The notes under the pieces are model-generated. The model ran no database searches. It was given only the letters and a program-made list of their open reading frames with translations, and was not told the DNA's origin. A DNA stretch of 64,000 bases, from positions 124,001 to 188,000 of the IMG/VR virus record IMGVR_UViG_3300022745_000017; one strand, given 5' to 3'. The position numbers were made by a program, and so were the translations under genes. Numbering within the stretch: the stretch's first letter is position 1; every line of letters begins with the position of its first letter. The stretch is from a virus. Shown here piece by piece: positions 2,572 through 21,803 of this stretch.

Positions 2572-2616
2572 GTGAGTTAGTGATGGTGTTAAGCTGACTC
2601 GCTTCTATTTTACACC
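2572..2616 (+). promoter_or_regulatory. Pseudoknot leader, copy 1
   Basis: Stem 1 pairs 2572-2580 with 2594-2602 (9 bp, two U-G). Stem 2 pairs GGTGT in the loop (2585-2589) with ACACC (2612-2616), directly before the GGAG at 2618-2621. The result is an H-type pseudoknot ending at the ribosome binding site. Confidence 0.6.
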
Positions 2617-2628
2617 CGGAGATTGATC

Positions 2629-3003
2629 ATGCGTATTGTTGTTACCCAAGCTGAGTTCGCTCTGTTCGCCAAACAAAATGCTGCGCTGGCAGCACTGGTG
2701 AAGAAAGAGTTTGGGATTGACCTCAAAGGTGAGGAGATCTCAATGCAAGAAGTGGCTGCAAAGTTGTCATCGAAAACGAAGTCTACCTGGGCTGACGCCT
2801 GGGTAGACCAGGATACTGAGTGCCTCGTGATCTACGTCTCGGAAGATGCCTTGCGCATCTCTGGTGCGATGATGCTGGAAAACGCCGAAGCGATCTTTGC
2901 GATCGGTAAGGCTTTCTACGCAGTATTCAGCATGGTTAAACCCATGCTGAAAGGTATTGTGGCACGGGCGGATGCCATCCGCCAGCGCTACGTGCTGAAG
3001 TGA
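2629..3003 (+). CDS. Hypothetical protein with pseudoknot leader (124 aa)
   Basis: The start is the ATG seven bases after GGAG (2618-2621), not the in-frame TTG at 2623. The product is a small soluble protein with no recognised domain and a moderately hydrophobic C-terminal third (residues about 85-110). It is transcribed alone: a motif promoter and pseudoknot lie upstream, and a palindrome that begins at its stop codon plus a terminator lie downstream. Confidence 0.75.
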   Translation: MRIVVTQAEFALFAKQNAALAALVKKEFGIDLKGEEISMQEVAAKLSSKTKSTWADAWVDQDTECLVIYVSEDALRISGAMMLENAEAIFAIGKAFYAVFSMVKPMLKGIVARADAIRQRYVLK

Positions 3004-3032
3004 TTACAGTGGGCCTAGGCCCACTGTAATCA
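3001..3032. repeat. 32-bp perfect palindrome overlapping a stop codon
   Basis: The sequence is a perfect palindrome without a spacer, with the core GGGCCTAGGCCC. Its first three bases are the stop codon of the upstream gene. The same core occurs in the palindromes at 33760 and 43532. Confidence 0.9.
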
Positions 3033-3033
3033 G

Positions 3034-3058
3034 AGAAACCGGAAACGGTTTCTTTTTT
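3034..3058 (+). terminator. Rho-independent terminator with GAAA tetraloop
   Basis: AGAAACCG (3034-3041) pairs with CGGTTTCT (3046-3053) around a GAAA loop and is followed by a T run. It lies directly after the palindrome. Confidence 0.92.
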
Positions 3059-3075
3059 CATTCGAGATATAGACA

Positions 3076-3085
3076 ATCACATATA
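3076..3085 (+). promoter_or_regulatory. Phage promoter-like motif ATCACATATA
   Basis: A member of the CACATATA motif family, placed after a terminator and before a pseudoknot leader. Confidence 0.5.
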
Positions 3086-3092
3086 CTCACCT

Positions 3093-3136
3093 TGATGAGC
3101 AATGGTGTTGCGCTTATCACTTCAAACATTTACACC
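3093..3136 (+). promoter_or_regulatory. Pseudoknot leader, copy 2
   Basis: Stem 1 pairs TGATGAGC (3093-3100) with GCTTATCA (3112-3119). Stem 2 pairs GGTGT (3104-3108) with ACACC (3132-3136). The junction is AAT, as in four other copies. The downstream ribosome binding site is AAGG at 3140-3143. Confidence 0.6.
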
Positions 3137-3151
3137 AAAAAGGTTAACAAC

Positions 3152-3607
3152 ATGGACCATAAACAAGTCCTCAGAATTCTCCAAGGTAAGCCTAACTACG
3201 TGCCAGGCTACCCTTTCGCAGGACAGTTCACTGTCATGGAGCCATCTCCTGACTTGCCCTCCCGTGAGTTGTTCTTTGCGGACGAGTCTGGTAGCGTTAA
3301 GCTGCTTGCCTCATTTGCTTCGTGCAAATACAAAGGTAGCCGTATTCTGTTTGACCGTGTAGAGTTTGAGTGGCGTGAGGTGACACCACCCTCACAAGCC
3401 CTACGATTCCTGCACAGCTTTGAGCCTCTTAAAGATGGTGTCTTAGACTTCCTGATCATGGCCCCGTCAGTGCGTCTGTACCGGCTCGACACCACACGAG
3501 CTGTCAAGCACATCTCTCCTATCGGCAAGGTGGACAAGCTGTTCATCAAGCTAGATAGTAGCTGGGACAGCACTGACGCTTTCATCATCACTCGCGTAAT
3601 GGCCTAA
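3152..3607 (+). CDS. Hypothetical protein with pseudoknot leader (151 aa)
   Basis: The ATG at 3152 follows AAAAAGG with eight bases of spacing. The longer in-frame start at 3092 would put the pseudoknot inside the coding region and is rejected. The product is soluble with no recognised domain. It is a single-gene unit ended by the terminator at 3628. Confidence 0.75.
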   Translation: MDHKQVLRILQGKPNYVPGYPFAGQFTVMEPSPDLPSRELFFADESGSVKLLASFASCKYKGSRILFDRVEFEWREVTPPSQALRFLHSFEPLKDGVLDFLIMAPSVRLYRLDTTRAVKHISPIGKVDKLFIKLDSSWDSTDAFIITRVMA

Positions 3608-3627
3608 CCGGGTCACTACGCGAGGAG

Positions 3628-3654
3628 AAGCACCTGCGGGTGCTTTTTCTTTTT
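3628..3654 (+). terminator. Rho-independent terminator
   Basis: AAGCACC pairs with GGTGCTT over a 4-nt loop and is followed by TTTCTTTTT. Confidence 0.9.
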
Positions 3655-3676
3655 GTCGATTCTATTTTATCACAGC

Positions 3677-3714
3677 ACCATATCACTTGAGTAGTCATGG
3701 CGCAGTGCTATGAC
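3677..3714 (+). promoter_or_regulatory. Degenerate promoter motif and leader hairpin
   Basis: CACCATATCAC (3677-3687) resembles the CACATATA motif. It is followed by a 7-bp hairpin (3694-3700 with 3708-3714) whose loop contains AGTGCTA, matching the stem-2 signature of the pseudoknot leaders. No GCACT partner lies downstream, so this looks like a degenerate member. Confidence 0.35.
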
Positions 3715-3740
3715 CTTCTTAGCTTAGAAAGGCTACTATC

Positions 3741-4238
3741 ATGTTCAAGAATATCGTGGGTATTTTGCTGGGGTTGGTGCTCTGTATTTTGGTGAGTGCC
3801 TGTGGGCAGAGCAAGCCGCCCGAGATCCCTGTGGTCGTGGCAGCCAGTGCACCCGAAACCAAGGTCAAGGTAGTGCCTTACGAGACGTGGAGCAAGAACT
3901 CTGCGGCCAGTCGTGACAACCTCACCATCAACGCCAACGCCTACCGATCCAGTTCTGCGCGTTTGAAGGGCTACAACTTCATTGACCGGGCGGACTCCAC
4001 GATTGGCTCCAAGTGTTCGGTTGGTCATGGCTGGGCTGAAGTCATCTTCACCAAAGCGGATGAAGAAAAGAAAGATGCCACAGGCAACCCCGTCATCCAC
4101 CGTATCTCGGTGTGGTGCAGCACGTTTGACAAGTCTCGCGGCTGCATGTTGGACGACGTGTTTCGCAAGTCGAACTACACCACCGAGGCGCAAGAATGCC
4201 AAGACGGTAAACTGCCTGACCCCCTGCCGCGCATCTGA
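3741..4238 (+). CDS. Predicted lipoprotein (165 aa)
   Basis: The N-terminus has a hydrophobic signal (residues 5-18) followed by a good lipobox, LVSAC, with the acylated cysteine at residue 21. The mature part contains five further cysteines (such as SKCSVGHGW and WCSTF) and suits the periplasm. The start is ATG 3741 after AGAAAGG. A tiny membrane protein gene follows within two bases. A phage lipoprotein might act in lysis (outer spanin) or superinfection exclusion; the sequence does not decide this. Confidence 0.8.
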   Translation: MFKNIVGILLGLVLCILVSACGQSKPPEIPVVVAASAPETKVKVVPYETWSKNSAASRDNLTINANAYRSSSARLKGYNFIDRADSTIGSKCSVGHGWAEVIFTKADEEKKDATGNPVIHRISVWCSTFDKSRGCMLDDVFRKSNYTTEAQECQDGKLPDPLPRI

Positions 4239-4239
4239 C

Positions 4240-4356
4240 ATGTTCACCATCCCTACCTTCTTGGCCAACATCGGTGCCGCTGTCGTGGTGACTGCCCTCT
4301 TGGGCACTGGCGGTGTCGTGGGTTGGTACGCCCATAAGTACCTGGGTAAGAAATAA
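4240..4356 (+). CDS. Tiny single-span membrane protein (38 aa)
   Basis: The ORF starts one base after the lipoprotein stop. It encodes one hydrophobic segment (residues about 9-29) with a short basic tail (HKYLGKK). No clear Shine-Dalgarno is visible, so translation would depend on coupling to the lipoprotein gene. It may be its partner, for example in lysis or exclusion. It is too small to assign to a family. Confidence 0.5.
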   Translation: MFTIPTFLANIGAAVVVTALLGTGGVVGWYAHKYLGKK

Positions 4357-4362
4357 GCCCTG

Positions 4363-4397
4363 GACAGTGTGTACGGTTAACACCCGTACACACTGTC
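4363..4397 (+). terminator. Long hairpin after the lipoprotein pair
   Basis: GACAGTGTGTACGG (4363-4376) pairs perfectly with 4384-4397. There is no T run, so it may be a processing or stability hairpin and not a terminator. Confidence 0.5.
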
Positions 4398-4422
4398 TAA
4401 CCACTCTCATTGAAAGATTTTT

Positions 4423-5205
4423 ATGCGCAGACTCACTCAACAACAAGCTCATGTCCATCAATACTTCGATGGTCGCACACGTCTTTTCATCACGAAAGAT
4501 TCCCTAAGCTCTGAAGATTCTCGTATCCAGGTCTATCGCGGCGTGATCAAAACCATTAGCATTGCCACAACAAACCAGGACGGCACTCCCAGTAAGAGAG
4601 CAATTGCCCACTACGAGGCTGTCGTAGAAAATGTGGGGTCTATATTTACAACAGTACTCTTGTCAGAGCAATTAGACAGTCTTGAGCGCGGGATTATCTG
4701 GAATACCAATCCTAACACAGTACACGATCTTAACAGTCGCTTCTTTGTGTCTGCAAAGCAAATCGCCATGTGGAGACCGCAGCAAGAGCGAATCCGTTTC
4801 TACGAGTCCATATGTCTGAATCACAAAGATTTGGTCACTTTGCATGGCTTTGATCTGTTGTACCTAGATCAGATCAAGAAGATCCAGAACTCCGGCTTGA
4901 GTGGGGCGTATGCGCCTATTGAGAAACACGAAATAGGTACGTTGACCAAGGCTGCTCGGCAAAACAATCCAGGAATCGATTCATCTTTTTGGACTGAAAA
5001 CAATGTGAAACCGGGCCACAATATCAGTGACACCTCTCTCACATTGGTCGACGAATCGGGGTTTGGTATCTTTAGCATTTTCAAGATCACAGACGATACC
5101 TACACGTTGGAGGAAGCCTGTGATGGATGCTACACGCGTGACTTCACCAAGCGACAACTCATCGAGCAACTGCGCAGCGCAATCAACTGGATTGAAAGAC
5201 AATGA
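4423..5205 (+). CDS. Hypothetical protein (260 aa)
   Basis: It starts at ATG 4423 with GAAAG upstream and ends in an ATGA overlap with the next gene, as the first of a three-gene chain. It is a soluble, mixed-composition protein. A CDGCYTRDF segment near the C-terminus carries two cysteines. No family is recognised. Confidence 0.75.
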   Translation: MRRLTQQQAHVHQYFDGRTRLFITKDSLSSEDSRIQVYRGVIKTISIATTNQDGTPSKRAIAHYEAVVENVGSIFTTVLLSEQLDSLERGIIWNTNPNTVHDLNSRFFVSAKQIAMWRPQQERIRFYESICLNHKDLVTLHGFDLLYLDQIKKIQNSGLSGAYAPIEKHEIGTLTKAARQNNPGIDSSFWTENNVKPGHNISDTSLTLVDESGFGIFSIFKITDDTYTLEEACDGCYTRDFTKRQLIEQLRSAINWIERQ

Positions 5206-5582
5206 AACCACAACCTCCCGAGAGCTCCTATGTGCGAGATGAAGAGATAGAGGTAAAGCCGCCTCTACCTCCAAAACCGCTACCACCAACCCGGCCTAAC
5301 AACAGAGTGACTGAGACAGGATTCTCTTCATTACCACCCCAATTAGTAGCAGTCATCCTTGTGGCTGTTATATTGCTGTTTATCTTACTGATGGTTGGAG
5401 CAGAAAAATCTGATCGCCATGTGTACCCTATACGAGTCGACGTAGTTGAGAGACTACCTGATAGTCAACCAGGTATGACCTGTGACAAATACACTGAGCG
5501 CAGATGTAAGGACGCCAGTCAAACAGAATGTGTGGTCTGGGGATCACCACGGATATCTTGCTACCAGAGGAGTGCCAAATGA
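5202..5582 (+). CDS. Single-pass membrane protein, proline-rich N-terminus
   Basis: The 126-residue product has a proline-rich cytoplasmic head (PPLPPKPLPPTRP, residues about 20-32), one strong membrane span (about 47-67) and a short outer domain with five cysteines. It overlaps its neighbours at both ends (ATGA), so it is translated as part of a chain. Type II topology with a cysteine-bearing periplasmic domain is the likely layout; the function is unknown. Confidence 0.75.
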   Translation: MKPQPPESSYVRDEEIEVKPPLPPKPLPPTRPNNRVTETGFSSLPPQLVAVILVAVILLFILLMVGAEKSDRHVYPIRVDVVERLPDSQPGMTCDKYTERRCKDASQTECVVWGSPRISCYQRSAK

Positions 5583-5989
5583 ACAACCCGGCAATAGAAG
5601 AGCAGTTGCACAGCTTCGAAAAACAGATTAAAAATACCCTCAAAGTAGTTGCTAACGCAGATGGCTACAGCGAAGATGGTTGGTCTGGCGTACATCCGGC
5701 AGACCGACAAAAGGTCGCTGATGTTTTGCTAGGCGGTATCGCCTCTCTAAAAGCCATATATGCAGCAGCTCAGCATGGTCGCACTAACACCGTCGATGAG
5801 CTCCGTGAAAAACTAATGCTGGGTTGGAGCACTACCAAGTATGAGTTTAAATCGTCCTACGACACAGTTCGACATTACCGGGACCTCGCTACTTGTCTGG
5901 AGTCTCAGATCTGTATCTTTAGCTGGACAGTTTCAAAAAGCGGTGAGATTGATAATACACTAGGTGCACGCACCAGGTTGGCGTCTTAA
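5579..5989 (+). CDS. Hypothetical protein (136 aa)
   Basis: The ATG at 5579 overlaps the previous stop and follows GAGGAG with six bases of spacing, so it is preferred to the earlier start at 5528. The product is small, soluble and mainly helical. It is the last gene of the operon; no family is recognised. Confidence 0.75.
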   Translation: MNNPAIEEQLHSFEKQIKNTLKVVANADGYSEDGWSGVHPADRQKVADVLLGGIASLKAIYAAAQHGRTNTVDELREKLMLGWSTTKYEFKSSYDTVRHYRDLATCLESQICIFSWTVSKSGEIDNTLGARTRLAS

Positions 5990-6000
5990 CCCAGTTTTCT

Positions 6001-6014
6001 TCAGTCACATATAT
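6001..6014 (+). promoter_or_regulatory. Phage promoter-like motif TCAGTCACATATAT
   Basis: An exact copy of the motif at 2553, again preceded by TTTTCT and followed by a pseudoknot leader. Confidence 0.55.
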
Positions 6015-6018
6015 CAAT

Positions 6019-6067
6019 GGTGAGTCTTTGATGGTGTTAAAGGACTCACCTATCTGAAACATACACC
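6019..6067 (+). promoter_or_regulatory. Pseudoknot leader, copy 3
   Basis: Stem 1 pairs GGTGAGTC (6019-6026) perfectly with GACTCACC (6043-6050) and extends by two pairs inward. Stem 2 pairs GGTGT (6033-6037) with ACACC (6063-6067), two bases before GGAG (6070-6073). Confidence 0.65.
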
Positions 6068-6081
6068 CTGGAGTATTTATC

Positions 6082-6510
6082 ATGCGCAAGTCCAACAGCA
6101 ACCCCGCCGACACATACATTCGCCTGATGGAGGCGGCCTCCTTAGCGAAAGCCATCTGCATTGCGATCTATGGGTCGGTGGAGAATTTCCCGAAAGACTG
6201 GGGGACAAACCTGGCGAAGTACCCTCGGCTTGCCCAATGGAAAGCTCTGCGGAGCAAGGCCGCCGACGCGGGCGAGAAGCTCTTGTCTGAGCATAAGGGG
6301 CCGGATAAACAGCGAGAGCTGTTTGTCCACTTCATGATCTACAAAGGTGACACCCTGGTGGACAAAATGGCTGCTGTGCGGTTGACGCACATTGTGAAGC
6401 CCAACACTGAAACGGCGGGGCTACTCCACATCCCAGTGGAGCACTTAGGTGCGCAGCAGCTCCAAGCCGAGCTGAACCTGTTCTTGGACACCCACCGGAT
6501 CTACGTGTAA
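6082..6510 (+). CDS. Hypothetical protein with pseudoknot leader (142 aa)
   Basis: It starts at ATG 6082, eight bases after GGAG. The product is a helical, lysine- and alanine-rich soluble protein with GC-rich codons compared with neighbouring genes. No family is recognised. It is a single-gene unit, bounded by the motif promoter and the hairpin at 6523. Confidence 0.75.
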   Translation: MRKSNSNPADTYIRLMEAASLAKAICIAIYGSVENFPKDWGTNLAKYPRLAQWKALRSKAADAGEKLLSEHKGPDKQRELFVHFMIYKGDTLVDKMAAVRLTHIVKPNTETAGLLHIPVEHLGAQQLQAELNLFLDTHRIYV

Positions 6511-6522
6511 GTCTGGTGGGCT

Positions 6523-6567
6523 AGCTACGGGTGGGCCTCGGCCCACCCGTAGCTGCTCTTTCTTTTT
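6523..6567 (+). terminator. 14-bp stem hairpin with T-rich tail
   Basis: AGCTACGGGTGGGC (6523-6536) pairs with 6541-6554 around CTCG and is followed by CTCTTTCTTTTTTG. Confidence 0.85.
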
Positions 6568-6587
6568 TGTTTCGATTCATCTACACC

Positions 6588-6617
6588 CACATATCACCTA
6601 CGTGGTCTAATCTAGAC
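6588..6617 (+). promoter_or_regulatory. Promoter-like motif CACATATCAC and leader hairpin
   Basis: The motif (6588-6597) is followed by a GTCTA/TAGAC hairpin (6605-6617). No second stem is visible, so this is not a pseudoknot copy. Confidence 0.45.
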
Positions 6618-6639
6618 TATCACTGTGAGAGTACTTATC

Positions 6640-7830
6640 ATGATCAATACGCAATCCCTGATGGAAAACTTGCAAAATGGCAAGACCGTCTACCGTGTCG
6701 GCTTTCGCTATGATCAAAACAGCAAGCAACCCATCTACAAGCTGTTCGAAGTCATTGGTTACCGAGCCGTGGTGGCCATGTCGCACACAGCTATTCACTC
6801 ATCTGTTCCAATGCCTGAGGTTAAAATGGCAGCGATCTTGAAAGGATCGTGCGAGCAAGACATCTATATCCTTGGTGGGCGACCTTCTAAAACGGATGGG
6901 GTCGAGACATGGATGATGATTTATGGTCGCTCCATCTGTAGTAACCATTACGACATTACCCGAGAGAAAGATCATGGTGACATCTGGTTTGAAGTACAGA
7001 TGTACGCTAACCTCACCTACGACAGTGAGCTGATGATCGGGGCTATCAAAGCGTTCCCCCAGGCTTGGCAAGCTGTGCCGGATGAGCTGTTGGGCGCTGC
7101 TTATTGCCTGAACTGCTACGCAGACGAGACACCTATTGATTTCGAACTCCTGAAAGCCCTGCGCAGCGGGGATACCGTGTCTGAAAAACTGGTGATCAGT
7201 ACGAAAAGCTGGGATGGTGGCCATCCCACTGACACACCTAAGGCTTATAACAAACAAGGCCTGGTGGTTACTGACCCATTTGGTCGGAGCAGCCCCACTG
7301 ACATGAGCGTCGTTCCGGCAGGGAAATTCAACCGTGCTGGCCCTACGGGGGATGGTAAGGAGTATTCCCATCACGCTTGGGTCAATCGCTTGCCTGGCTT
7401 GGTGCCTTCCTCACAACACGCATCTGCGCCCAATACCTTCAAGTGTACAGATTGCGTGCAACAAGTGACCATGTTTTGCCCAGGTGATCATAGCGGTTGT
7501 CCGAATGATTTCCGAGGTATTCGTGAGGCCATGGCTGTCGTCGCTGAAATAAATGAGTCGCCAGCCAGTGGTGAAGATGTAGGGGTTGAATCGCCGGCAG
7601 AAGTGTCTGCGTTTGCTGCGCAGCATCGCTTCGATTGTCCCACCACTTTAGAGCAGGCGCGTGAAAGCGCTGATAACCAAAGACCGGTGGTCGCGGGGTT
7701 GAGCGCTTTCTTCGATCCATCAAAAGCTTACGAGGAGGCAAATCTGAAAACTGATGAGCTGCCGCGTCAGGAGTCTAGTGATACCTCATCGCAAAGCGAC
7801 ACATCGACGCCCGATACATCCCAGGACTGA
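6640..7830 (+). CDS. Paralogue-cluster protein with cysteine motif (396 aa)
   Basis: It starts at ATG 6640 after GAGAG. The segment at about residues 130-175 (AFPQAWQ, then YADETPID) matches the AFPHVWH / LYIDEP region of the genes at 8674 and 9545, so it belongs to the same expanded family. A later block holds CTDC and CPGDHSGCP cysteines (about residues 267-289), a possible metal site. The last 60 residues are disordered and rich in S, T, D and Q. It has its own promoter-like motif and is the first and largest gene of the cluster. Function unknown. Confidence 0.75.
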   Translation: MINTQSLMENLQNGKTVYRVGFRYDQNSKQPIYKLFEVIGYRAVVAMSHTAIHSSVPMPEVKMAAILKGSCEQDIYILGGRPSKTDGVETWMMIYGRSICSNHYDITREKDHGDIWFEVQMYANLTYDSELMIGAIKAFPQAWQAVPDELLGAAYCLNCYADETPIDFELLKALRSGDTVSEKLVISTKSWDGGHPTDTPKAYNKQGLVVTDPFGRSSPTDMSVVPAGKFNRAGPTGDGKEYSHHAWVNRLPGLVPSSQHASAPNTFKCTDCVQQVTMFCPGDHSGCPNDFRGIREAMAVVAEINESPASGEDVGVESPAEVSAFAAQHRFDCPTTLEQARESADNQRPVVAGLSAFFDPSKAYEEANLKTDELPRQESSDTSSQSDTSTPDTSQD

Positions 7831-7840
7831 TTGAACCCCA

Positions 7841-7874
7841 GTACACTAGGTGAGGGTCTACTCACCTAGTGTAC
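7841..7874 (+). terminator. 14-bp perfect intergenic hairpin
   Basis: GTACACTAGGTGAG (7841-7854) pairs with 7861-7874 over a 6-nt loop. There is no T run; the next Shine-Dalgarno is 13 bases downstream. It may be a processing or stability element between co-transcribed genes. Confidence 0.5.
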
Positions 7875-7896
7875 GTCCTCTATCTCGGAGTTTTAT

Positions 7897-8208
7897 ATGG
7901 AAGTTTTCACACCTCCGGCTATCGGTAGTCATTTTGTTGGCTTTAAAGGCCCTCAGACTCCCGATAATACGTTTACTTTTAAGCGCTTTACAGTAGTTGG
8001 CTATGTGCCGATGATGTGCGCGTTTGAAATAGGCGTAAGACAGATGCAAGGCTTGCACTTGCAAGACGAAGAAAAGGTCGATTACTACCAGGCTGGCACT
8101 TGGTTACAAGATCAACAAATCTGGTTCTACCGGGTTTGTCCTACTGGCTGCGCCGGGCCTTCAGTGATACAGACAAAAGACGGTAGCGACATCTGGTTAA
8201 CCCAATAA
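7897..8208 (+). CDS. Paralogue-cluster protein, short form A (103 aa)
   Basis: It starts after GGAG (7887-7890). It is a tandem duplicate of the next gene: both share an IGS..GFK..PDNT.TFK.FTVVGYVPM block, then LHLQDEE.VDYYQAGTW and a C-terminal TKGG/DGSDIW motif. The N-terminal IG(S/A) block also occurs in the genes at 8674 and 9545. It may be a small beta-rich fold; no known family is recognised. Confidence 0.8.
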   Translation: MEVFTPPAIGSHFVGFKGPQTPDNTFTFKRFTVVGYVPMMCAFEIGVRQMQGLHLQDEEKVDYYQAGTWLQDQQIWFYRVCPTGCAGPSVIQTKDGSDIWLTQ

Positions 8209-8228
8209 ACCCTGTACTTGGAGTTTTT

Positions 8229-8660: not shown

Positions 8661-8673
8661 AGGAAACTATCAC

Positions 8674-9459: not shown

Positions 9460-9479
9460 GGCACACAAACCCCTATACT

Positions 9480-10222: not shown

Positions 10223-10881
10223 TAGGTGAGGATTAGGGTGGTTTAAGGAGGGGAGTAGGGAGATTTCATATTTCAAAAGAAAGAAGAAAGAGAGAAAAGT
10301 CTCTCCTCCTTCCTCCCTCTTCTTTCTTCTTCTTCTCTCCTCTTTCCTCTTCTTTCCCCCTTCCCCCTATCTCTCCTCTCCTTAAACCTCTCCTCTCTAT
10401 CCCCCTACCCCCAATCAACTCCTATCACCTCTCATCATCATCAATCATCTCCCTCCTACCTCCTCTCCAAAAGAGAGAAAGTAGAAAGAAAAGAAATAGA
10501 TAAACAAGAGTTTTTCACTCACACTATTAGGAGGTAGAAGTTGGTTATTAAAAAGAGGATAAGTAGGTAGTAAGTAAGACAATACAAAGAAGTGTTTAGA
10601 GCAATCTCTGATTGCTCTAAAGGAGCCCAATAACAAACGAAAAAGCTTTTATTTTCCTTTAGGTAGGAGTAGGTAGTGACTCGTAGGGTAGTAGGTATAC
10701 ATGCGTAACTACTTATCCCTACATTGTTTTTAATACTGCTTTTAAGTTAATAGAGTACACGCGCGGGCGTGTGCGCGCGTTTATAATTGATAAGGAGTGT
10801 AAAAATATAACAGATAGTACATATTAACCAAACGAGTCTTTTATATGTGTAACCTTTCCTTAGTCAAACCGGAGAATAGCT
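10223..10881. other. Gene-free island with purine/pyrimidine and CG-alternating tracts
   Basis: About 660 bases lack a credible gene. They contain 25 uninterrupted purines (10275-10299) joined directly to 69 uninterrupted pyrimidines (10300-10368), and then further CT-rich sequence to about 10468. A second purine-rich tract (10469-10500), an 11-bp hairpin (10595-10605 with 10611-10621), an alternating purine/pyrimidine stretch (about 10757-10780) and AT-rich sequence before the next gene follow. Such composition is seen at replication origins and triplex-forming sites; which applies here is not known. A 63-codon reverse ORF inside it looks like a by-product of the skewed composition. Confidence 0.85.
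10595..10621. repeat. 11-bp inverted repeat in the gene-free island
   Basis: TTTAGAGCAAT and ATTGCTCTAAA are separated by five bases. There is no T run, so it is not a typical terminator. Confidence 0.7.
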
Positions 10882-12890: not shown

Positions 12891-12901
12891 ACCAGATTCT
12901 T

Positions 12902-12915
12902 TCAGTCACATATAT
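12902..12915 (+). promoter_or_regulatory. Phage promoter-like motif TCAGTCACATATAT
   Basis: An exact copy of the motif, after TTCTT and before a pseudoknot leader. Confidence 0.55.
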
Positions 12916-12917: not shown

Positions 12918-12966
12918 GGAGATGAATCGGCGATGATGCTGACTGGTTCATCTCTTTAACTGCATC
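12918..12966 (+). promoter_or_regulatory. Pseudoknot leader, copy 4
   Basis: Stem 1 pairs GAGATGAA (12919-12926) with TTCATCTC (12947-12954) and extends to about 12 pairs. Stem 2 pairs GATGC (12935-12939) with GCATC (12962-12966). Both stems differ in sequence from copies 1-3 but keep the pairing. GGAG lies at 12971-12974. Confidence 0.65.
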
Positions 12967-12979: not shown

Positions 12980-13438
12980 GTGGTTGACCTCGGTGATAAT
13001 AGCAGCTTCGGGCTGCCTCGTGTCCTGACTTGTGTCACACAGGTCATGCAAGCGCTTGGTTTTGAATACCGCCTGCGTGGCACCCCCAGGGTGCGGATCG
13101 TCATGGAAATAGGTAAAAGTGGGGTCTTGGCTGGTTACAGCCATAAGGACAACACGATATACCTTACCTTAGGGGCCCCAACAGCCGCTATGTGGCATGA
13201 AGCCGTGCACGCGGGGCAACCTGATGCCGAGCATGTGGACTACTACACCTCTCTGGGCGTCATAGACCAAGAGCTCTATTCGACATCCCGAACCGAGCAG
13301 GAAGCGCGCGCTGTGACTGCTGTGTACTACCTAGCCCGCAAGCTAGGTAGTCTGGACGAGGCAATTGCGAAAGCGGTAGCTTGCCAGAAGAAGACTAGCT
13401 TGGGCAACTTAGAGCAAGCCATATCAGCTTGTATCTGA
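12980..13438 (+). CDS. HExxH zinc metalloprotein A (152 aa)
   Basis: It starts at GTG 12980, five bases after GGAG. MWHEAVHAGQ gives an HEAVH zinc site (H73, E74, H77), and the EQEARAV segment about 40 residues later offers a glutamate as possible third ligand. The gene at 14493 has the same architecture, so the two are paralogues. The size and motif order resemble small phage metallopeptidases of the ImmA/IrrE or SprT-like type; the substrate is unknown. It has its own pseudoknot leader and ends at a 40-bp palindrome. Confidence 0.75.
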   Translation: MVDLGDNSSFGLPRVLTCVTQVMQALGFEYRLRGTPRVRIVMEIGKSGVLAGYSHKDNTIYLTLGAPTAAMWHEAVHAGQPDAEHVDYYTSLGVIDQELYSTSRTEQEARAVTAVYYLARKLGSLDEAIAKAVACQKKTSLGNLEQAISACI

Positions 13439-13443: not shown

Positions 13444-13483
13444 ATAGTCGAGAGGTGTGCTGTACAGCACACCTCTCGACTAT
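13444..13483. repeat. 40-bp perfect palindrome
   Basis: Two 20-base arms join with no spacer (centre GTAC) six bases after a stop codon. A T-rich stretch (CTATTTTTCTTT) follows. It is probably a transcription end or processing hairpin. Confidence 0.9.
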
Positions 13484-13500
13484 AATCTATTTTTCTTTGG

Positions 13501-13509
13501 TAACATATA
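13501..13509 (+). promoter_or_regulatory. Promoter-like motif TAACATATA
   Basis: A variant of the CACATATA motif in the same position relative to the T-rich tract and the pseudoknot. Confidence 0.5.
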
Positions 13510-13514: not shown

Positions 13515-13558
13515 AGTGAGTCTAAATGATGCTAAGGCTCACTATCACTAACTGCATC
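13515..13558 (+). promoter_or_regulatory. Pseudoknot leader, copy 5
   Basis: Stem 1 pairs 13515-13523 with 13535-13543 (9 bp, one U-G). Stem 2 pairs GATGC (13528-13532) with GCATC (13554-13558), followed two bases later by GGAG (13561-13564). Confidence 0.65.
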
Positions 13559-14400: not shown

Positions 14401-14414
14401 GAATGTAGTTTATT

Positions 14415-14427
14415 TCAGTCACATATA
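14415..14427 (+). promoter_or_regulatory. Phage promoter-like motif TCAGTCACATATA
   Basis: A copy of the motif upstream of a pseudoknot leader. Confidence 0.55.
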
Positions 14428-14433: not shown

Positions 14434-14477
14434 ATGAGATTGCAATAGTGCTAGTGATCTCATATACCAACTGCACT
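14434..14477 (+). promoter_or_regulatory. Pseudoknot leader, copy 6
   Basis: Stem 1 pairs ATGAGAT (14434-14440) with ATCTCAT (14457-14463), plus two wobble pairs and one C-G inward. Stem 2 pairs AGTGC (14447-14451) with GCACT (14473-14477). GGAG lies at 14481-14484. Confidence 0.65.
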
Positions 14478-14492
14478 TTAGGAGTAATGAAA

Positions 14493-15005
14493 ATGGAATT
14501 CGAATACATGGAGTTTGAGGAGACTGTGTCAAATACCCATATGGTGGCCCAGATGATGGGCTATCTCGGCTATGAGGTCGAAAGGGGTATCGATATGCCG
14601 ATCATCCGAGTGACTGACGAGTATGTCGGACACGCTGCCGATTGGCGACTGGTGAACGGCAGGATAAGCGCCATCACAATGTATGCTGGGCGCTGCGAGA
14701 GCTCATTGTGGCACGAGCTATGCCACCACCACCAACCGATTCTCCGGCAAGGTGTAGACCCATCATACTACCGTGAAGACGGCAGTATGGATGAGGCCGC
14801 ATATGCCGCCGACCCAGTAGAGTGCCAGGCTCGCGCCGTTGGCATGCTGGCAGTAGCTGCTAAGATACATGGGGAGCGGCGCGCTGTCGACATGGCCCTG
14901 ATAACCAGGGCTGTCCTCGGAGCCGACCCACTCCATCATGAGTTGTTCATAGCCACGCTCACCGGCTTGAAAGCTCTCTCTCTCTGTATCATGCGGAGAA
15001 GTTAG
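14493..15005 (+). CDS. HExxH zinc metalloprotein B (170 aa)
   Basis: The ATG at 14493 is eight bases after GGAG; an ATG at 14487 is too close and the GTG at 14448 lies inside the pseudoknot. SLWHELCHHH gives HELCH (H74, E75, H78), and PVECQARAVG supplies a likely third ligand, as in the paralogue at 12980. The C-terminal half is helical. It ends at TAG 15003-15005, two bases before a tiny gene. It is probably a metallopeptidase of unknown substrate. Confidence 0.75.
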   Translation: MEFEYMEFEETVSNTHMVAQMMGYLGYEVERGIDMPIIRVTDEYVGHAADWRLVNGRISAITMYAGRCESSLWHELCHHHQPILRQGVDPSYYREDGSMDEAAYAADPVECQARAVGMLAVAAKIHGERRAVDMALITRAVLGADPLHHELFIATLTGLKALSLCIMRRS

Positions 15006-15007
15006 CT

Positions 15008-15109: not shown

Positions 15110-15125
15110 GAAAGCATAAACCAAA

Positions 15126-15163
15126 CCCAACTAACCTACCTGTAAAACGGTAGGTTAGTTGGG
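15126..15163 (+). terminator. 15-bp perfect hairpin
   Basis: CCCAACTAACCTACC (15126-15140) pairs with 15149-15163. T-rich sequence (TTTTCTTTTG, then TATTTTTCTT) follows at a distance. Confidence 0.65.
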
Positions 15164-15199
15164 CTGAGTAATGTGTTTTCTTTTGTATCCTATTTTTCT

Positions 15200-15213
15200 T
15201 CAGTCACATATAT
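15200..15213 (+). promoter_or_regulatory. Phage promoter-like motif TCAGTCACATATAT
   Basis: An exact copy, preceded by TATTTTTCT. Confidence 0.55.
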
Positions 15214-15218
15214 CGTTG

Positions 15219-15263
15219 GTGACTTGGCAATGGTGCTAGTCAAGGCATATCTTTAATTGCACT
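15219..15263 (+). promoter_or_regulatory. Pseudoknot leader, copy 7
   Basis: Stem 1 pairs 15219-15228 with 15239-15248 with one A-G mismatch. Stem 2 pairs GGTGC (15232-15236) with GCACT (15259-15263), including one G-U. GGAG lies at 15266-15269. Confidence 0.55.
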
Positions 15264-15276
15264 TAGGAGATTGATT

Positions 15277-16072: not shown

Positions 16073-16073
16073 A

Positions 16074-16126
16074 CCCACCGGTTAATCCCGGTGGGAGAAA
16101 AGACCTCAGGGCCTTTTCTTTTTTTT
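16074..16126 (+). terminator. Double hairpin terminator
   Basis: A CCCACCGG/CCGGTGGG stem (16074-16095) is followed by a second stem (16096-16119, AGAAAAG with CTTTTCT) and eight T residues. Confidence 0.9.
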
Positions 16127-16140
16127 GTATTCGTTTACAA

Positions 16141-16154
16141 TCACTTATTATCTA
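16141..16154 (+). promoter_or_regulatory. Second-class promoter-like motif TCACTTATTATCTA
   Basis: The same block recurs at 57914, and CACTTATTA recurs at 26018. It lies after a terminator and 23 bases before the next ATG, and its leader has no pseudoknot. Confidence 0.45.
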
Positions 16155-16176
16155 TTTGAGTTCAATAGGAGAAATC

Positions 16177-17190
16177 ATGAGTAAGCAAAAACCTTTCGAT
16201 GTCCGCATCATGCGTGGACTAATCATGTCCGAAGTCACTTTCGAGAAATCCACTAGGCATTGGGCCAGCTTTGATCAGCTGATCTTCAAATCAACCTGTG
16301 GTCGCACTTTCCGCTTGGGCACAGACGATTGCTCTGCACCCGAGCTCATCGACATCGTCGGTGATTTACAAGACTTGGTTGGGCATCCTCTTTTGCAAGC
16401 GGAGTCAGTGCAGTCTAAAGCAAAGCTGTCTAACCGCTACAAGTTCTCTCGTAAGAAGGCAGATACGCACACCAAGAGCATGTGGACTTACTATAAGTTT
16501 GCTACCATCAAAGGCCATGTGCATTTGCGCTGGTTAGGTGAGTCTGATTACTATTCGGTCGAGGTAGACTTTGTCGAACTCGTTGGCCTACAAGCAGCGC
16601 ATGACCACGAGGAAGTGGCTCACCTGCGGGCAAAGCTAGAGCAAAAACAAGCCGAAGAGAAGCCAGGTAAACCCATCTTGTCCATGTGCGAGAAGCTGGC
16701 CTTTTTCGGTTACTCAGAGCTAAACGCCTGTCTAACTGTAGCCCCTGGCTCCAGCTGTATGGTGGTCAACGACAAGTCCGGCAGCACTTACACCGGGGGT
16801 GGTGACTACTTTCACACTGCGGTCGTTATGGCTTTGATAGAGTACGGGTTTGCAGACCAGATATCCTCACTGAGCAAACCCTGCGCACTCAGTGAGTTGC
16901 TGCGCGATCACGTCATGCCACTACAAACCTTAGGCATCTCCCAAGTGCAATTGGAGATTAACCCACACCTCAACCCCAACCACATACTCACACTACCCGA
17001 GTACCTAGCCACCATTGACCCACCTATCACCGAGCAAGAATCATCTGACATCCAAGATGACAACTGTTTGTTCAAATTCACTCTACAATCTGTTTGGAAA
17101 GAACATCATGGAAAATCATTCTACGCAAGGTCAGCCCAGCTCGTCAGCCATAAAGCTGCCGACTACATTAGAGCAAGCACTAGCCATTAA
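16177..17190 (+). CDS. Hypothetical protein (337 aa)
   Basis: The start at ATG 16177 follows AGGAGA. The soluble protein has a lysine/glutamate-rich helical linker around residues 150-170. No known domain is recognised. Its last 83 bases overlap the start of the next gene in another frame. Confidence 0.75.
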   Translation: MSKQKPFDVRIMRGLIMSEVTFEKSTRHWASFDQLIFKSTCGRTFRLGTDDCSAPELIDIVGDLQDLVGHPLLQAESVQSKAKLSNRYKFSRKKADTHTKSMWTYYKFATIKGHVHLRWLGESDYYSVEVDFVELVGLQAAHDHEEVAHLRAKLEQKQAEEKPGKPILSMCEKLAFFGYSELNACLTVAPGSSCMVVNDKSGSTYTGGGDYFHTAVVMALIEYGFADQISSLSKPCALSELLRDHVMPLQTLGISQVQLEINPHLNPNHILTLPEYLATIDPPITEQESSDIQDDNCLFKFTLQSVWKEHHGKSFYARSAQLVSHKAADYIRASTSH

Positions 17191-17605
17191 GCACCTACGG
17201 GGTGGTGATAGTTATACCGCTATTTGTAAGAGGGCATACGAAGACATCATGGCATGGCATCTCATGCACATGAACACGTTCTACACGGCAAATAACCCAC
17301 CGCCTGATACTTGGATTTATGACATCGCTGCAAACAAAGACGATGTCATGCAAAAGCGCTACCACATCGATGTCCCACCTGACCTGCGACTGATGGCGAT
17401 ACGCGCGATTGCCAGTAGCTACCCGATTTACTTCGAGCACTTCACCCAAGAGAGCATGCTCGATGTCGATCCTGCGGCCTTGCAAAAGGTTATAGATAGC
17501 CTCCAAGAGTATGTCTATGGTAGCAATGACATCAACACGCTATGCAGCGCGATCTCTGTGCTAGAGACAACCATCGCTCAGATCTGCAGCCGGGCAAGTA
17601 AATAA
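17108..17605 (+). CDS. Hypothetical protein (165 aa)
   Basis: ATG 17108 follows GGAAAG inside the 3' end of the preceding gene, an unusually long overlap for this window. The product is helical and acidic with a short S/Q-rich N-terminus. No family is recognised. Confidence 0.7.
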   Translation: MENHSTQGQPSSSAIKLPTTLEQALAIKHLRGGDSYTAICKRAYEDIMAWHLMHMNTFYTANNPPPDTWIYDIAANKDDVMQKRYHIDVPPDLRLMAIRAIASSYPIYFEHFTQESMLDVDPAALQKVIDSLQEYVYGSNDINTLCSAISVLETTIAQICSRASK

Positions 17606-17629
17606 GCAAACCAGCTCAACATCTTTTAG

Positions 17630-17663
17630 AGCCACTCTAACCAGGGTGGCTACATTTTTCTTT
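17630..17663 (+). terminator. Hairpin with T-rich tail
   Basis: AGCCAC (17630-17635) pairs with GTGGCT (17646-17651), plus two inner pairs. ATTTTTCTTTT follows. The next Shine-Dalgarno (AGGAG) comes directly after, so it may be partial or regulated termination. Confidence 0.65.
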
Positions 17664-17675
17664 TAGGAGTTGCTC

Positions 17676-19355
17676 ATGAACCCGAAGCACCTGAATGCTC
17701 TTGGACATTTCTCATACATGATCTTTAGCCACACGCAGATATCCCTCACCTTGCGAGAAACAGCTGCTGTGGCCAAAGACCTAGCTGTTAATACCCATAG
17801 CGATAGCGATACAGTGGTGGCAGATCTCTTAGAAGGTCGTGATTGGGATACCTTTGAAAATCTGGAGACCTATGACGATGTCTTGGAAGGCATTCGACGC
17901 TCAGATATCTTGCAGTCTGTAGCGGACTACTACATCGCAGCGATTCCTGATGATAAGCTAGCTAAAAAGCTCTTAGCGTCATCAAAGCAATTCATCTGGG
18001 GAAGGGATCTACTCAGCGTCGAGCAGGTTCGCATTTTCCTCAGCTCTATTCGCCCTGCAAATCCAGAACCCAAAGTTCTCAACATTTACAAGATGGACTT
18101 GGCTCAGATAGATGGTATTTACTGCGGTCGTCCTTCCATCTATGGCAATCTCTACGGCACTAAGGAGTTTGGCCGTGGTAATGCAGTGGTGCTCCATCAA
18201 GACTACTTGCAAAAACACCCTAAGTACGTCGAGGACATTAAACCCGACCTAGAAGGGCAAAACCTCGTTTGCTTTTGTAAACCCAAAGCTTGCCACTGCG
18301 ATAACTTACTGACCGTCTGCAACACGCCCAAAACCGAGAACCGGCTCTCTAAGCTCGTTGTAGCTGAAAAGCTGATAGAGTCCAAGCCTACACGATCTCT
18401 TATCGACAAAATAGTCGAAGACACAATTGGCAACGACGATACATTTTGGAGGTGGATCAGAGAGTTACAAGATCAGGTCAAAAAGCTGGACTTCTACTCC
18501 AAGCCCTCGGAAAAGACTGAGAAAGTCAATCAAGCCCCGCCTAAGGCTAGCCTGGGTTATGAGGGCTTACAGTACGAGCAAGGCGCTTGGCACTACACTG
18601 GCAATGAAGTCGTCAAGGAGTGCCTGCGCCGACTCCATGACACGCCGTCCGGGATTCCTAAGCAGGAGTCTTACATGCCTCGGGTGTGGGAAGAGTTTCA
18701 AGCAATGGCAGGACAGAGAGCAGCAACGCAGCTTGCTTCGCCTAAGCCGTGTGACCCAGCCCAAACCCAGCAGGGTGGTTACTTGGTGGACATCACTGAG
18801 TCTCTGCCTAAGAACTACATTTATCTGCCACACGACAATAGTGTAGCAGTGAAAACAGCAGACCTGGTTTGGTCGATCCAGCCCCACGCCGCCGGATCTA
18901 AAGAGCGCTACGAAGCTCTTTGCCAGATCTTACCCAACAAGCTGCACCAAACCCAACACCCCTTGTCTATCATTGTGGACTGTGAGAAGCTCAGGAAGAC
19001 CTTTCCCAACGGTTGTATCTGGATTACTTACACTCCCAGTGAAATGACTGACAGCAACGTCAGCATTGTCAAAGCGGTCTGTGGTGATTTGGCAGTACCT
19101 AACAGCAAGCAACTCCAGGCCTACACTTTCTCGGTGACTTGGGAGCTATGGAAGCCCCACCAGCACAATGCCGACTTCTTAGCTGACCATGGCCTGTACC
19201 AAGCATGTCAAGCCATCGCTGACTGGATCGCCATTGTGACGGAGTACGCAGCCATCTCTCCGGAAGGTACACTGATGGAGATCGGTGTGCCGGCCAGACT
19301 CAATCTGGGCAAATGCACTGCTGACATGACCAATTGCGAAATCTCGGAGTTCTAA
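17676..19355 (+). CDS. DUF4326-containing multidomain protein (559 aa)
   Basis: The start at ATG 17676 follows AGGAG. Residues about 130-215 match DUF4326: a KVLNIYK strand, then YCGRPSIYGN, and the cysteine/histidine block CFCKPKACHCD. The rest, including a basic linker and a C-terminal domain with WSIQPH and WITYT segments, is not recognised. DUF4326 is common in phages and its activity is not settled as far as I know; the C-x-C/H pattern suggests metal binding. It is followed by an overlapping gene and lies three genes upstream of sspB in the same operon. Confidence 0.7.
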   Translation: MNPKHLNALGHFSYMIFSHTQISLTLRETAAVAKDLAVNTHSDSDTVVADLLEGRDWDTFENLETYDDVLEGIRRSDILQSVADYYIAAIPDDKLAKKLLASSKQFIWGRDLLSVEQVRIFLSSIRPANPEPKVLNIYKMDLAQIDGIYCGRPSIYGNLYGTKEFGRGNAVVLHQDYLQKHPKYVEDIKPDLEGQNLVCFCKPKACHCDNLLTVCNTPKTENRLSKLVVAEKLIESKPTRSLIDKIVEDTIGNDDTFWRWIRELQDQVKKLDFYSKPSEKTEKVNQAPPKASLGYEGLQYEQGAWHYTGNEVVKECLRRLHDTPSGIPKQESYMPRVWEEFQAMAGQRAATQLASPKPCDPAQTQQGGYLVDITESLPKNYIYLPHDNSVAVKTADLVWSIQPHAAGSKERYEALCQILPNKLHQTQHPLSIIVDCEKLRKTFPNGCIWITYTPSEMTDSNVSIVKAVCGDLAVPNSKQLQAYTFSVTWELWKPHQHNADFLADHGLYQACQAIADWIAIVTEYAAISPEGTLMEIGVPARLNLGKCTADMTNCEISEF

Positions 19356-19732
19356 TGAAACAACCTGACAAAATCATTCAAGCCACCATTTTCTCGACGT
19401 GCTACGTCGTTGTAGATGGTGAGACCCACCACCACGCAAACCTCGCTAACAAAGGCAGGCCCTACGATTACCTGGCTTCATGTCTAGAGATCGTTAGCGC
19501 CCGCTACCCTGGCCAGGTCATCAAGATCAATTGTGCCACGCGCACATTGGAGCTTCCATTTGTAGTGATCATCGCCCCCGACGAGATCACCGTTGACTAC
19601 ACTCCCGGCCACCAGCTAGAAAACAAAGTGACCCTCAAGCGAGACGAAGATCACCTCTTCAAAACCACTCGCATCCCGCAGCTCTATGACGCACTACAAA
19701 GCGCATGGAAAACCAGCTTGAAAAAGGACTGA
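19355..19732 (+). CDS. Hypothetical protein (125 aa)
   Basis: The ATG overlaps the last base of the previous stop (TAATG) behind CGGAG, so translation is coupled. The soluble alpha/beta-like product is not recognised. Confidence 0.75.
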   Translation: MKQPDKIIQATIFSTCYVVVDGETHHHANLANKGRPYDYLASCLEIVSARYPGQVIKINCATRTLELPFVVIIAPDEITVDYTPGHQLENKVTLKRDEDHLFKTTRIPQLYDALQSAWKTSLKKD

Positions 19733-19733
19733 T

Positions 19734-20108
19734 ATGAAACCCGATCACCCCGAGCTCATGACCAAAGGCGAGCTCGCTTACGATCAGCAGCTCCAAGAGT
19801 TCGCTGCCAAACTGAAGCCTGTGCACATCGAGCAGCTCTACTCACTCATCAAGAGCCGCCGCCCCATTGAAGATGGTTCTGTACTCAGCAAGTCTGCCCG
19901 TGATGATTTGTTGGAGATTGGCGCAATCAGTAAGGCCGTCTTCAATGGACAAGAAGGCTATCAGGTCTGCACCTACATGGGGGCTGAGCTGTTTCGCAAA
20001 GCTATGCACAAAGACGGCTTTGAAGCAGCGACGCTGGACAAGGCTATCGCTGAGTACAAAGCCCGCCACACGCCACCAGAAGACCAACCCATCTACTTCA
20101 CGGTTTAA
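19734..20108 (+). CDS. Hypothetical protein (124 aa)
   Basis: It starts one base after the previous stop with AAAAAGGA upstream. The product is a small, helical, acidic protein directly before sspB in the same operon, so it might be a partner or client of the adaptor. No family is recognised. Confidence 0.75.
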   Translation: MKPDHPELMTKGELAYDQQLQEFAAKLKPVHIEQLYSLIKSRRPIEDGSVLSKSARDDLLEIGAISKAVFNGQEGYQVCTYMGAELFRKAMHKDGFEAATLDKAIAEYKARHTPPEDQPIYFTV

Positions 20109-20119
20109 GGATACCAATC

Positions 20120-20548
20120 ATGTCACACAAGCAAGTCAATCCAGCCCCTTACCTGCAACGCGCCATTTACGAATGGTGCCTCGCGTCAGGTTTCACACCT
20201 CACGTCGCATTCATTGCGACACCGGAAATGGGTGTGCCCATGCAGTACGTCAAGGACAACGCTGTCGCGCTCAATGTGTTGCCCAGTGCGGTAAACAATC
20301 TGACTTGGGGCGACGATTACTTGGCATTCGAAGCTCGCTTCAATGGCCAAGCCCACCACATCGTCATCCCAGTTACCCACATCTTGAAGGTGTTTGCCAA
20401 AGAAACGGGTGAGGGCCTGGATTTCATCCCTGTCTTACAAGACCCGATTCCCTTCGCTACGCAATCCCCACCAACCGATCAGCCCCATCCGGGTGAAAAC
20501 CCCTCGACTACCAAACCCCGTCCTAAACTGACCCTCGTGAAAGGTTAA
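20120..20548 (+). CDS. sspB: SspB-like ClpXP adaptor (142 aa)
   Basis: The order of motifs follows bacterial SspB: PYLQRAIYEWCLASGFTPH at the N-terminus, then VPMQYVKDNAVALNV, AVNNLTWGDDYLAFEARFNG and IPVTHILKVFAKE. A flexible proline-rich linker follows, ending in PRPKLTLVKG. In E. coli SspB the substrate domain binds ssrA-tagged proteins and the C-terminal LRVVK (XB) motif docks on ClpX; LTLVK here fits that motif. A phage copy could deliver host or defence proteins to ClpXP or protect phage proteins. The Shine-Dalgarno is AAGGAT. The start and the full length match the family (about 130-165 aa). Confidence 0.88.
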   Translation: MSHKQVNPAPYLQRAIYEWCLASGFTPHVAFIATPEMGVPMQYVKDNAVALNVLPSAVNNLTWGDDYLAFEARFNGQAHHIVIPVTHILKVFAKETGEGLDFIPVLQDPIPFATQSPPTDQPHPGENPSTTKPRPKLTLVKG

Positions 20549-20550
20549 TC

Positions 20551-21306
20551 ATGGACCATCGCAATCCCTTAGGGGCCGCTCGTTTCATCCATACCGCCTA
20601 CGCACTCACCCACCCACTACAGTTTGCGTGGGAGCACGGTGAGCGTATCCACAAACTCTCCAAAGTCTGGGGTGCGTCAGCTAAAGACACTGTGGGCTAC
20701 CTCACAGAAGAAGCTATCAGTGTCTATGCGAACCACCCTGACACCAAGCAGCTGACCATTGCACACATTCAAAACCGCATGGCGCAGGAAATCTACACGA
20801 CTCTGGAGCGAAAAAGCGCTACTGAGTTCGAGTTCCTGGCGTTTTGCATCAACAAGTTTGAGTGCATGCCTGGTTTGGTGATGCGCCCCGGTGTCGTCGA
20901 ATGGGCTAAGCGTGCACAAGCCAACAAGACATCGCACCGCGTATCGATCCTGTCACCCAAATACCCCACCCTGAGCGACGATGACAAGCTCCGAAGTGTG
21001 CTGGTGATCGATGAGGAAGATGTCCATCTTACAGCCACCATCAGCCGCTTGGTGGAGACTTGCAACGAGTATGAGGTATGGCTCAGTTGCAAGACGATCG
21101 AAGCCTATGCCCAAGCTGTGACAGCTGCTATCGACTCTGGATCGGGGTTGCGAATAGCCCCGTGCTCCTTGAATTACGAATCCAACACCAGCAAAAGCTT
21201 TGTCCGTGCTAATCGCAATGGTGAGCTTAAAGGAGATTACACCACTGTAAGTGTCCGTATTCGAGACATCAACCCAGTCGGTAAGTTGTTGTTGCACTGG
21301 CAGTGA
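20551..21306 (+). CDS. Hypothetical protein (251 aa)
   Basis: It follows sspB by two bases with AAAGG upstream, so it is probably co-translated with it. The helical N-terminal half (about 1-110) may be a protein-interaction domain; the second half has beta-type segments. No family is recognised. Confidence 0.75.
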   Translation: MDHRNPLGAARFIHTAYALTHPLQFAWEHGERIHKLSKVWGASAKDTVGYLTEEAISVYANHPDTKQLTIAHIQNRMAQEIYTTLERKSATEFEFLAFCINKFECMPGLVMRPGVVEWAKRAQANKTSHRVSILSPKYPTLSDDDKLRSVLVIDEEDVHLTATISRLVETCNEYEVWLSCKTIEAYAQAVTAAIDSGSGLRIAPCSLNYESNTSKSFVRANRNGELKGDYTTVSVRIRDINPVGKLLLHWQ

Positions 21307-21312
21307 TAGTTA

Positions 21313-21337
21313 GTAGGTAGGTTAAAGACCTACCTGC
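21313..21337 (+). terminator. Hairpin after the sspB operon
   Basis: GTAGGTAGGT pairs with ACCTACCTGC over five bases (10 pairs including one wobble). There is no T run. Confidence 0.45.
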
Positions 21338-21370
21338 CGACATGTGGTTAACAAAATGTAGAGGATTACC

Positions 21371-21670
21371 ATGGCTGAAGAGCTGATCAAAAAGGTTACC
21401 CGAGACTTAAATGCAGCAGGATACGAACTCGTCGATGTACTCGATCCGAATAAACGATTCCTCATCCACCGCGTGGAAGACATAGTCGATCACCAGACAC
21501 TTAACGAGATAGATATGTGGCTATACACCAACGGTGTACACGGCGAGCTACCGCCTAAGCACATCGTTGATGGATTGACGCTTCTAGGTCTTACGGACTT
21601 TGAGCAGAGACGCTTTCATACTCTTAACGGCTTAAGCCACCTCAAAGTGTGGACTAAAATAAAGTCCTAA
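21371..21670 (+). CDS. Duplicated small protein A (99 aa)
   Basis: It starts after GAGGAT. It is a paralogue of the gene at 21819: AAGYEL.DVL.P.KR, a central HxxxNEID(M/E)xL segment, GELPPKH and FHTLNGL. The helical pattern would suit a small nucleic-acid or protein-binding fold, but no family is recognised. Confidence 0.75.
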   Translation: MAEELIKKVTRDLNAAGYELVDVLDPNKRFLIHRVEDIVDHQTLNEIDMWLYTNGVHGELPPKHIVDGLTLLGLTDFEQRRFHTLNGLSHLKVWTKIKS

Positions 21671-21680
21671 CGGTCCTTTA

Positions 21681-21714
21681 GCAGTGGTAGGCAGCTGGGA
21701 CTGCCTACCACTGC
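21681..21714 (+). terminator. 14-bp perfect hairpin
   Basis: GCAGTGGTAGGCAG (21681-21694) pairs with 21701-21714. CTATTTTTCTTC follows about 15 bases later. Confidence 0.65.
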
Positions 21715-21738
21715 GTATCTATTTGACTCTATTTTTCT

Positions 21739-21750
21739 TCAGTCACATAT
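21739..21750 (+). promoter_or_regulatory. Phage promoter-like motif TCAGTCACATAT
   Basis: A copy of the motif, preceded by TATTTTTCT. Confidence 0.55.
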
Positions 21751-21756
21751 GCTCTT

Positions 21757-21803
21757 AGTGAGTTGGTAATAATGCTAAGCTAACTTGTCTCATTCACTGC
21801 ATC
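21757..21803 (+). promoter_or_regulatory. Pseudoknot leader, copy 8
   Basis: Stem 1 pairs 21758-21767 with 21779-21788 using several G-U pairs. Stem 2 pairs ATGC (21772-21775) with GCAT (21799-21802), with an A-C mismatch where others pair. GGAG lies at 21806-21809. This is the weakest of the eight copies. Confidence 0.5.

Follow-up and report, generated by a model that had tools for sequence, protein, structure and literature searches.

The rpsO mRNA of E. coli carries a translational operator at its ribosome binding site, a pseudoknot that serves a single gene and is bound by S15. The closest described element in phage mRNA is the leader of gene 32 in T4, T2 and RB69, an H-type pseudoknot 5′ of the ribosome binding site of, again, a single gene; it lies about 67 nt before the start codon, and the stretch in between is unstructured and coated by gp32 (PMC3014915, which also mentions the pseudoknot operator of rpsO). 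Here we follow up a prediction made for a 64-kb stretch of virus DNA (positions 124001-188000 of the 217,973-bp record IMGVR_UViG_3300022745_000017; hereafter the window), in which a family of mRNA leaders likewise appears to form H-type pseudoknots beside the ribosome binding site. They differ from gene 32 in that 13 genes carry the leader, the fold extends from the presumed 5′ end of the transcript to the side of the Shine-Dalgarno (SD) sequence, and there is no known binder. Other likenesses are partial. The stabilising stem-loops of ompA and papA also set a stem at or near the mRNA 5′ end, with proposed protection against RNase E, but these are plain hairpins, whereas in the window phage the loop is knotted to SD-proximal sequence. 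The PeSL cassettes of T4-like phages (Arbiol 2010; Comeau 2014) repeat a terminator stem-loop and an early promoter before small accessory genes, which the arrangement here resembles; their stem-loop is the terminator, however, and the pseudoknot leader adds a further RNA element 3′ of the promoter. The jumbo phage AR9, too, has a reported motif shared among the 5′ untranslated regions of its early transcripts, with its function left open (PMC5312081), and the likeness is one of description only. We found no described RNA family with this layout, and few phage pseudoknots have been reported in translational control; a structured phage mRNA leader is of a known kind, and the pseudoknot version appears to be new.

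The leader family and its fold

The original prediction had listed eight leaders, and all eight were recovered with the expected sequences and coordinates. All are on the plus strand of the window, at 2572-2616 (stem-2 halves GGTGT at 2585-2589 and ACACC at 2612-2616; GGAG 1 nt on), 3093-3136 (GGTGT at 3104-3108, ACACC at 3132-3136), 6019-6067 (GGTGT at 6033-6037, ACACC at 6063-6067; GGAG 2 nt on), 12918-12966 (GATGC at 12935-12939, GCATC at 12962-12966; GGAG 4 nt on), 13515-13558 (GATGC at 13528-13532, GCATC at 13554-13558; GGAG 2 nt on), 14434-14477 (AGTGC at 14447-14451, GCACT at 14473-14477; GGAG 3 nt on), 15219-15263 (GGTGC at 15232-15236, GCACT at 15259-15263; GGAG 2 nt on) and 21757-21803 (AATGC at 21771-21775, GCATC at 21799-21803; GGAG 2 nt on). 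The family itself is larger than predicted: a promoter-anchored search of the whole genome brought it to 13 copies, with five extra leaders that start near genome positions 20120, 27242, 67805, 74970 and 121460. All 13 lie on the same strand, downstream of one promoter, TTCAGTCACATATA, and end 1-4 nt ahead of the SD, so that the 2-5 bases originally given for the spacing between stem 2 and the SD have to be corrected. GGAG, given as the SD throughout, holds for seven of the window leaders but not for the one at 3093, which has AAAAAGG.

The genome search with a covariance model that had been proposed alongside the prediction was run with a model, R1, built from the 13 leaders. Its members score 47-80 bits; these are the same leaders on which it was trained, and the informative part is the gap to other matches. 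The best non-member in the genome reaches 29.9 bits and is a contrast leader on the plus strand of the window (32968-33030) that has the promoter and the stem-1 hairpin without a stem-2 partner. A loose structural descriptor that leaves out the promoter gave 22-30 background matches per shuffled genome and is by itself not evidence.

Direct counts and a tree-aware test both bear out a covarying two-stem pseudoknot. In a plain MAFFT alignment of the 13 leaders (A1), 90% of pair cells hold standard pairs, both sides have changed in 10 of 14 pairs, and both stems covary. The observed covariation was reached in none of 500 shuffles, with 21 doubly changed cells against 7.5 in the shuffles, and pairing drops to 31-43% in slid registers. 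Stem 2 is the strongest part, with 98.5% of its cells paired and 3 of its 5 pairs doubly changed, and occurs in the versions GGTGT/ACACC, GATGC/GCATC, GATGT/ACATC, AGTGC/GCACT and GGTGC/GCACT. When linkers were swapped between leaders, none of 300 swaps matched the observed pairing of loop with linker. The tree-aware G-test, in which substitutions were re-placed along FastTree branches with average product correction (APC), put stem-2 pairs at ranks 1 and 2 of 2,485 column pairs (E of about 0.03 and 0.15); the top stem-1 pair came fifth and does not reach significance alone. Cells of stem 1 hold 17 G-U pairs versus 3 A-C, which favours a folded sense-strand RNA and would not be expected of a DNA palindrome.

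These figures also bear on a more trivial account, that the leaders are recently duplicated promoter cassettes whose pairing reflects shared ancestry or a DNA palindrome and no selected RNA fold. The copies do share sequence beyond the stems, and a terminator joined to a promoter recalls the mobile PeSL cassettes. However, the null model that takes the tree into account still leaves two stem-2 pairs on top, and both the excess of doubly changed cells and that of G-U over A-C run counter to this account, which we consider very unlikely. Cassette spread and RNA selection can, moreover, be compatible. By their covariation, the leaders are a real, selected RNA fold.

The predicted length of stem 1, 8-12 bp, fits most copies, which reach about 8-15 bp in independent minimum-energy folds; in these folds it fails in three, at genome positions 20120 and 27242 and at 15219 of the window, where stem 1 is imperfect. 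Stem 2 is intact in 12 of 13 copies, the leader at 21757 having 4 bp and an A-C mismatch. Where stem 1 folds as predicted, the modelled loops measure about 3 nt (L1), 2-4 nt (L2) and 6-12 nt (L3), with a stem 1 taken as about 8-13 bp and a stem 2 of 5 bp. Judged by general knowledge of such folds, these loops are able to span the stems in the model, and the geometry is one that suits an H-type pseudoknot. The unpaired loop bases (A/G)AT and TA are conserved. In some relatives that share the promoter (records G001 and G022), the loop AGTGGTT resembles the AATrGTGyTA of the window phage.

That no described family has this layout had also been claimed, and Rfam agrees: its covariance models gave no match above the gathering threshold in the 64-kb window, and at E values of up to 5, in two stretches, just chance microRNA, small RNA and small nucleolar RNA matches that lie off the leaders. 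Going by Rfam and the collections searched, this would be a new RNA family. The same result weighs on the idea of a ligand-sensing riboswitch of a small H-type class, like preQ1-I or SAM-II. A small H-type pseudoknot that adjoins the SD and keeps its loop bases is what such a class would look like, but no Rfam match appeared even at the permissive thresholds used for the two stretches, the downstream genes encode unrelated small proteins that mostly have no Pfam match, conservation seems too low for a ligand pocket, and the SD is not sequestered. We regard a riboswitch as extremely unlikely.

The promoter, its units and the relatives

Because the genome encodes a phiKZ-type major capsid protein, a divergent DnaB-like ATPase, several RNA polymerase beta-type subunits and a nuclear shell protein, the gene content identifies the source as a nucleus-forming, phiKZ-type jumbo phage (218 kb) with multisubunit RNA polymerases. 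It has no near kin in the collections searched, which may lack very near records and where its closest capsid relatives show at most 47% identity, and megablast of the region against known phages gave no match.

Each window leader follows a copy of the promoter motif on the plus strand: an early-type form at 2552-2565 (CTCAGTCACATATA), a motif kept in related jumbo phages, and further copies at 3072-3085 (GACAATCACATATA), 6000-6013, 12901-12914, 13496-13509 (a variant, TTTGGTAACATATA), 14414-14427, 15199-15212 and 21738-21751. The units are ordered as terminator-like hairpin (in 9 of 13, with 11-18 bp), promoter, pseudoknot, SD and small gene; the hairpin just 5′ of the unit at 13515 has 18 bp (13444-13483, plus strand). 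Early promoters of jumbo phages with their own polymerases carry a conserved AT-rich motif of about 10 nt centred near -10 (PMC7598289), and because of this we take the shared motif to be, most likely, a promoter of the virion polymerase. As would be expected of an early promoter of this class, the motif is repeated upstream of the units, and multisubunit RNA polymerase genes are present. A second promoter form, CCACATATC, stands ahead of several genes, including that of the nuclear shell protein (genome position about 42214, L011), with plain leaders that have no pseudoknot.

The promoter is common to about 20 distantly related IMG/VR contigs, and TTYTTCAGTCACATATA is present in 25 IMG/VR stretches. 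With one mismatch allowed, it falls on one strand only in each of 13 such records, and a reversed control gave no match. The leaders of these relatives open with a hairpin, whose distance from the promoter is the same, and what follows varies by group. In six records (G001, G022, G027, G028, G032 and G033; stretches L059, L128, L129, L146, L148, L152 and L139), a second short hairpin ends 1-3 nt ahead of a (G)AAAGG SD, and its arms, of the form GCnnn/nnnGC as read from the sequences, vary yet remain complementary (for example, GCTAC/GTAGC, GCAGC/GCTGC and GCGTA/TACGC). In G025 and G030 (about 15 leaders, L131-L135 and L107-L111, respectively), a long nested hairpin, for which we know of no family name, stops just ahead of TTAAGGAG, with 96% of cells paired and 37 doubly changed in alignment A3. 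In G031 and G023, the 5′ hairpin alone is clear. Leaders of a further record with the same promoter type (G020; L060, L063, L067 and L070) have ATTCGAA, mostly as ACATTCGAA, shortly 5′ of the SD.

The pseudoknot of the window was found in none of the promoter-sharing relatives examined. Model R1 gave no match, under stricter filters, in phiKZ, EL, OBP, FLC9, FLC8, LucasX, pVa-21 and Proteus phage 10, and weak matches only in 21 capsid-related records; patterns that join pseudoknot and promoter found no true copy in IMG/VR; and IMG/VR searches with the product of a gene behind one of the leaders and with the ligase brought up no related loci. Candidates that came up were rejected: L179 falls within coding sequence, a chance match, L044 proved to be a related promoter with a plain hairpin, the leaders of G025 and G030 are accounted for by the nested extended hairpin, and in G001 a possible stem 2 shares bases with a conserved small hairpin. 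Because the relatives share promoter and hairpin and none has the pseudoknot, the promoter and 5′ hairpin look ancestral to the wider group, with an SD-adjoining helix common in it, and the pseudoknot appears to be this phage's own version, found only here among the relatives searched.

This arrangement could also suit a leader that acts, while nascent, on the phage RNA polymerase, by way of pausing, promoter escape or antitermination, and not on translation. The put RNAs of phage HK022 act on the host polymerase in this way as RNA. Here the fold would be transcribed before all else, a terminator-like hairpin precedes 9 of the 13 units, and the relatives form a hairpin there too, downstream of the same promoter. 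But in every copy the downstream stem is set by the SD, as a helix is by other means in two groups of relatives, which transcription would not need, the genes are short, and terminator-like hairpins stand between many of the units; we think a role of this kind unlikely.

A proposed function for the leaders

We propose, with about even confidence, that the leaders are cis-acting elements of an early regulon of 13 units that would both cap the 5′ end and present the SD. An RNA polymerase of the phage itself, probably that of the virion, would start at TTCAGTCACATATA, so that the 5′ end of the transcript lies no more than a few bases from stem 1. Pairing of the stem-1 loop with the bases immediately 5′ of the SD would then complete the H-type pseudoknot. 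Almost no unpaired 5′ end would be left, and 5′-end-dependent decay by way of RppH and RNase E would be slowed. The compact body of the leader would stop just before the SD, leaving it free of leader pairing for entry of the 30S subunit.

Several observations are consistent with this. In E. coli, it is established that a 5′ stem-loop can stabilise mRNA (Emory 1992 and Bouvet and Belasco 1992, cited in PMC3997798). Stem 2 is predicted to leave the SD unpaired, so that it would adjoin the SD and not hide it, and predicted mean SD accessibility goes from 0.48 to 0.67 once leader pairing is removed, though not in every copy. A role for shape and position would fit the relatives, in which the helix stays in place and its fold and sequence differ. 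Other points weigh against the proposal. The gain in SD accessibility is modest and partly trivial, a shorter fragment having less to pair with, and there is a clear fall in the leader at 6019; when the stem-2 bases alone are blocked, mean SD accessibility is unchanged (0.47 vs 0.47). A mere cap would have no use for the conserved loop bases, (A/G)AT and TA, which hint instead at a bound factor or at tertiary contacts. Finally, a stem 2 of 5 bp would be weak on its own.

In the main rival reading the pseudoknot serves as an operator: a phage, host or ribosomal protein would bind it, block 30S entry and shut off or time the early genes jointly, in the manner of gp32 on T4 gene 32 mRNA or S15 on rpsO mRNA. 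One fold with conserved loop bases over 13 genes is what a regulon operator would offer, the fold abuts the SD, and T4 gene 32 provides a phage precedent (PMC3014915). On the other side, the SD itself lies outside the fold, and the relatives keep position and not fold or sequence, which argues against a single conserved binder. We consider an operator less likely than not. We are similarly doubtful of a broader proposal, that nucleus-forming jumbo phages tag their early mRNAs, with a 5′ hairpin and an SD-docked helix, for selective stabilisation, export or translation, and that the tag of this phage evolved into a pseudoknot while relatives use other folds.

One knotted fold before at least 13 small genes would point to a common way of protecting or tuning messages. 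If the fold does protect or promote phage messages, it provides a ready reporter system and a testable cis-element, which could help to explain how early jumbo-phage mRNAs build up and are translated within minutes. The relatives, in which the helix stays where it is and its architecture is replaced, make the role of the leader directly testable.

Downstream genes and neighbouring features

A Pfam scan of ten downstream products gave a single match, to a NUDIX hydrolase domain. As to a gene for a single-stranded DNA-binding protein behind a leader, that domain was the sole Pfam match among the ten, most of which have no assigned function. The products of 12980-13438 and 14493-15005 in the window contain the HExxH-like stretches WHEAVHAGQ and WHELCHHHQ, with no Pfam match, and are possibly small metalloproteins. 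The leader at genome position 121460 is followed by an open frame that has just 32 codons (L015, 2133-2231). Elsewhere in the window, about 660 bases (10223-10881) have no long plausible gene; they hold a purine/pyrimidine hairpin at 10287-10320 and a CGCG-rich hairpin at 10759-10780.

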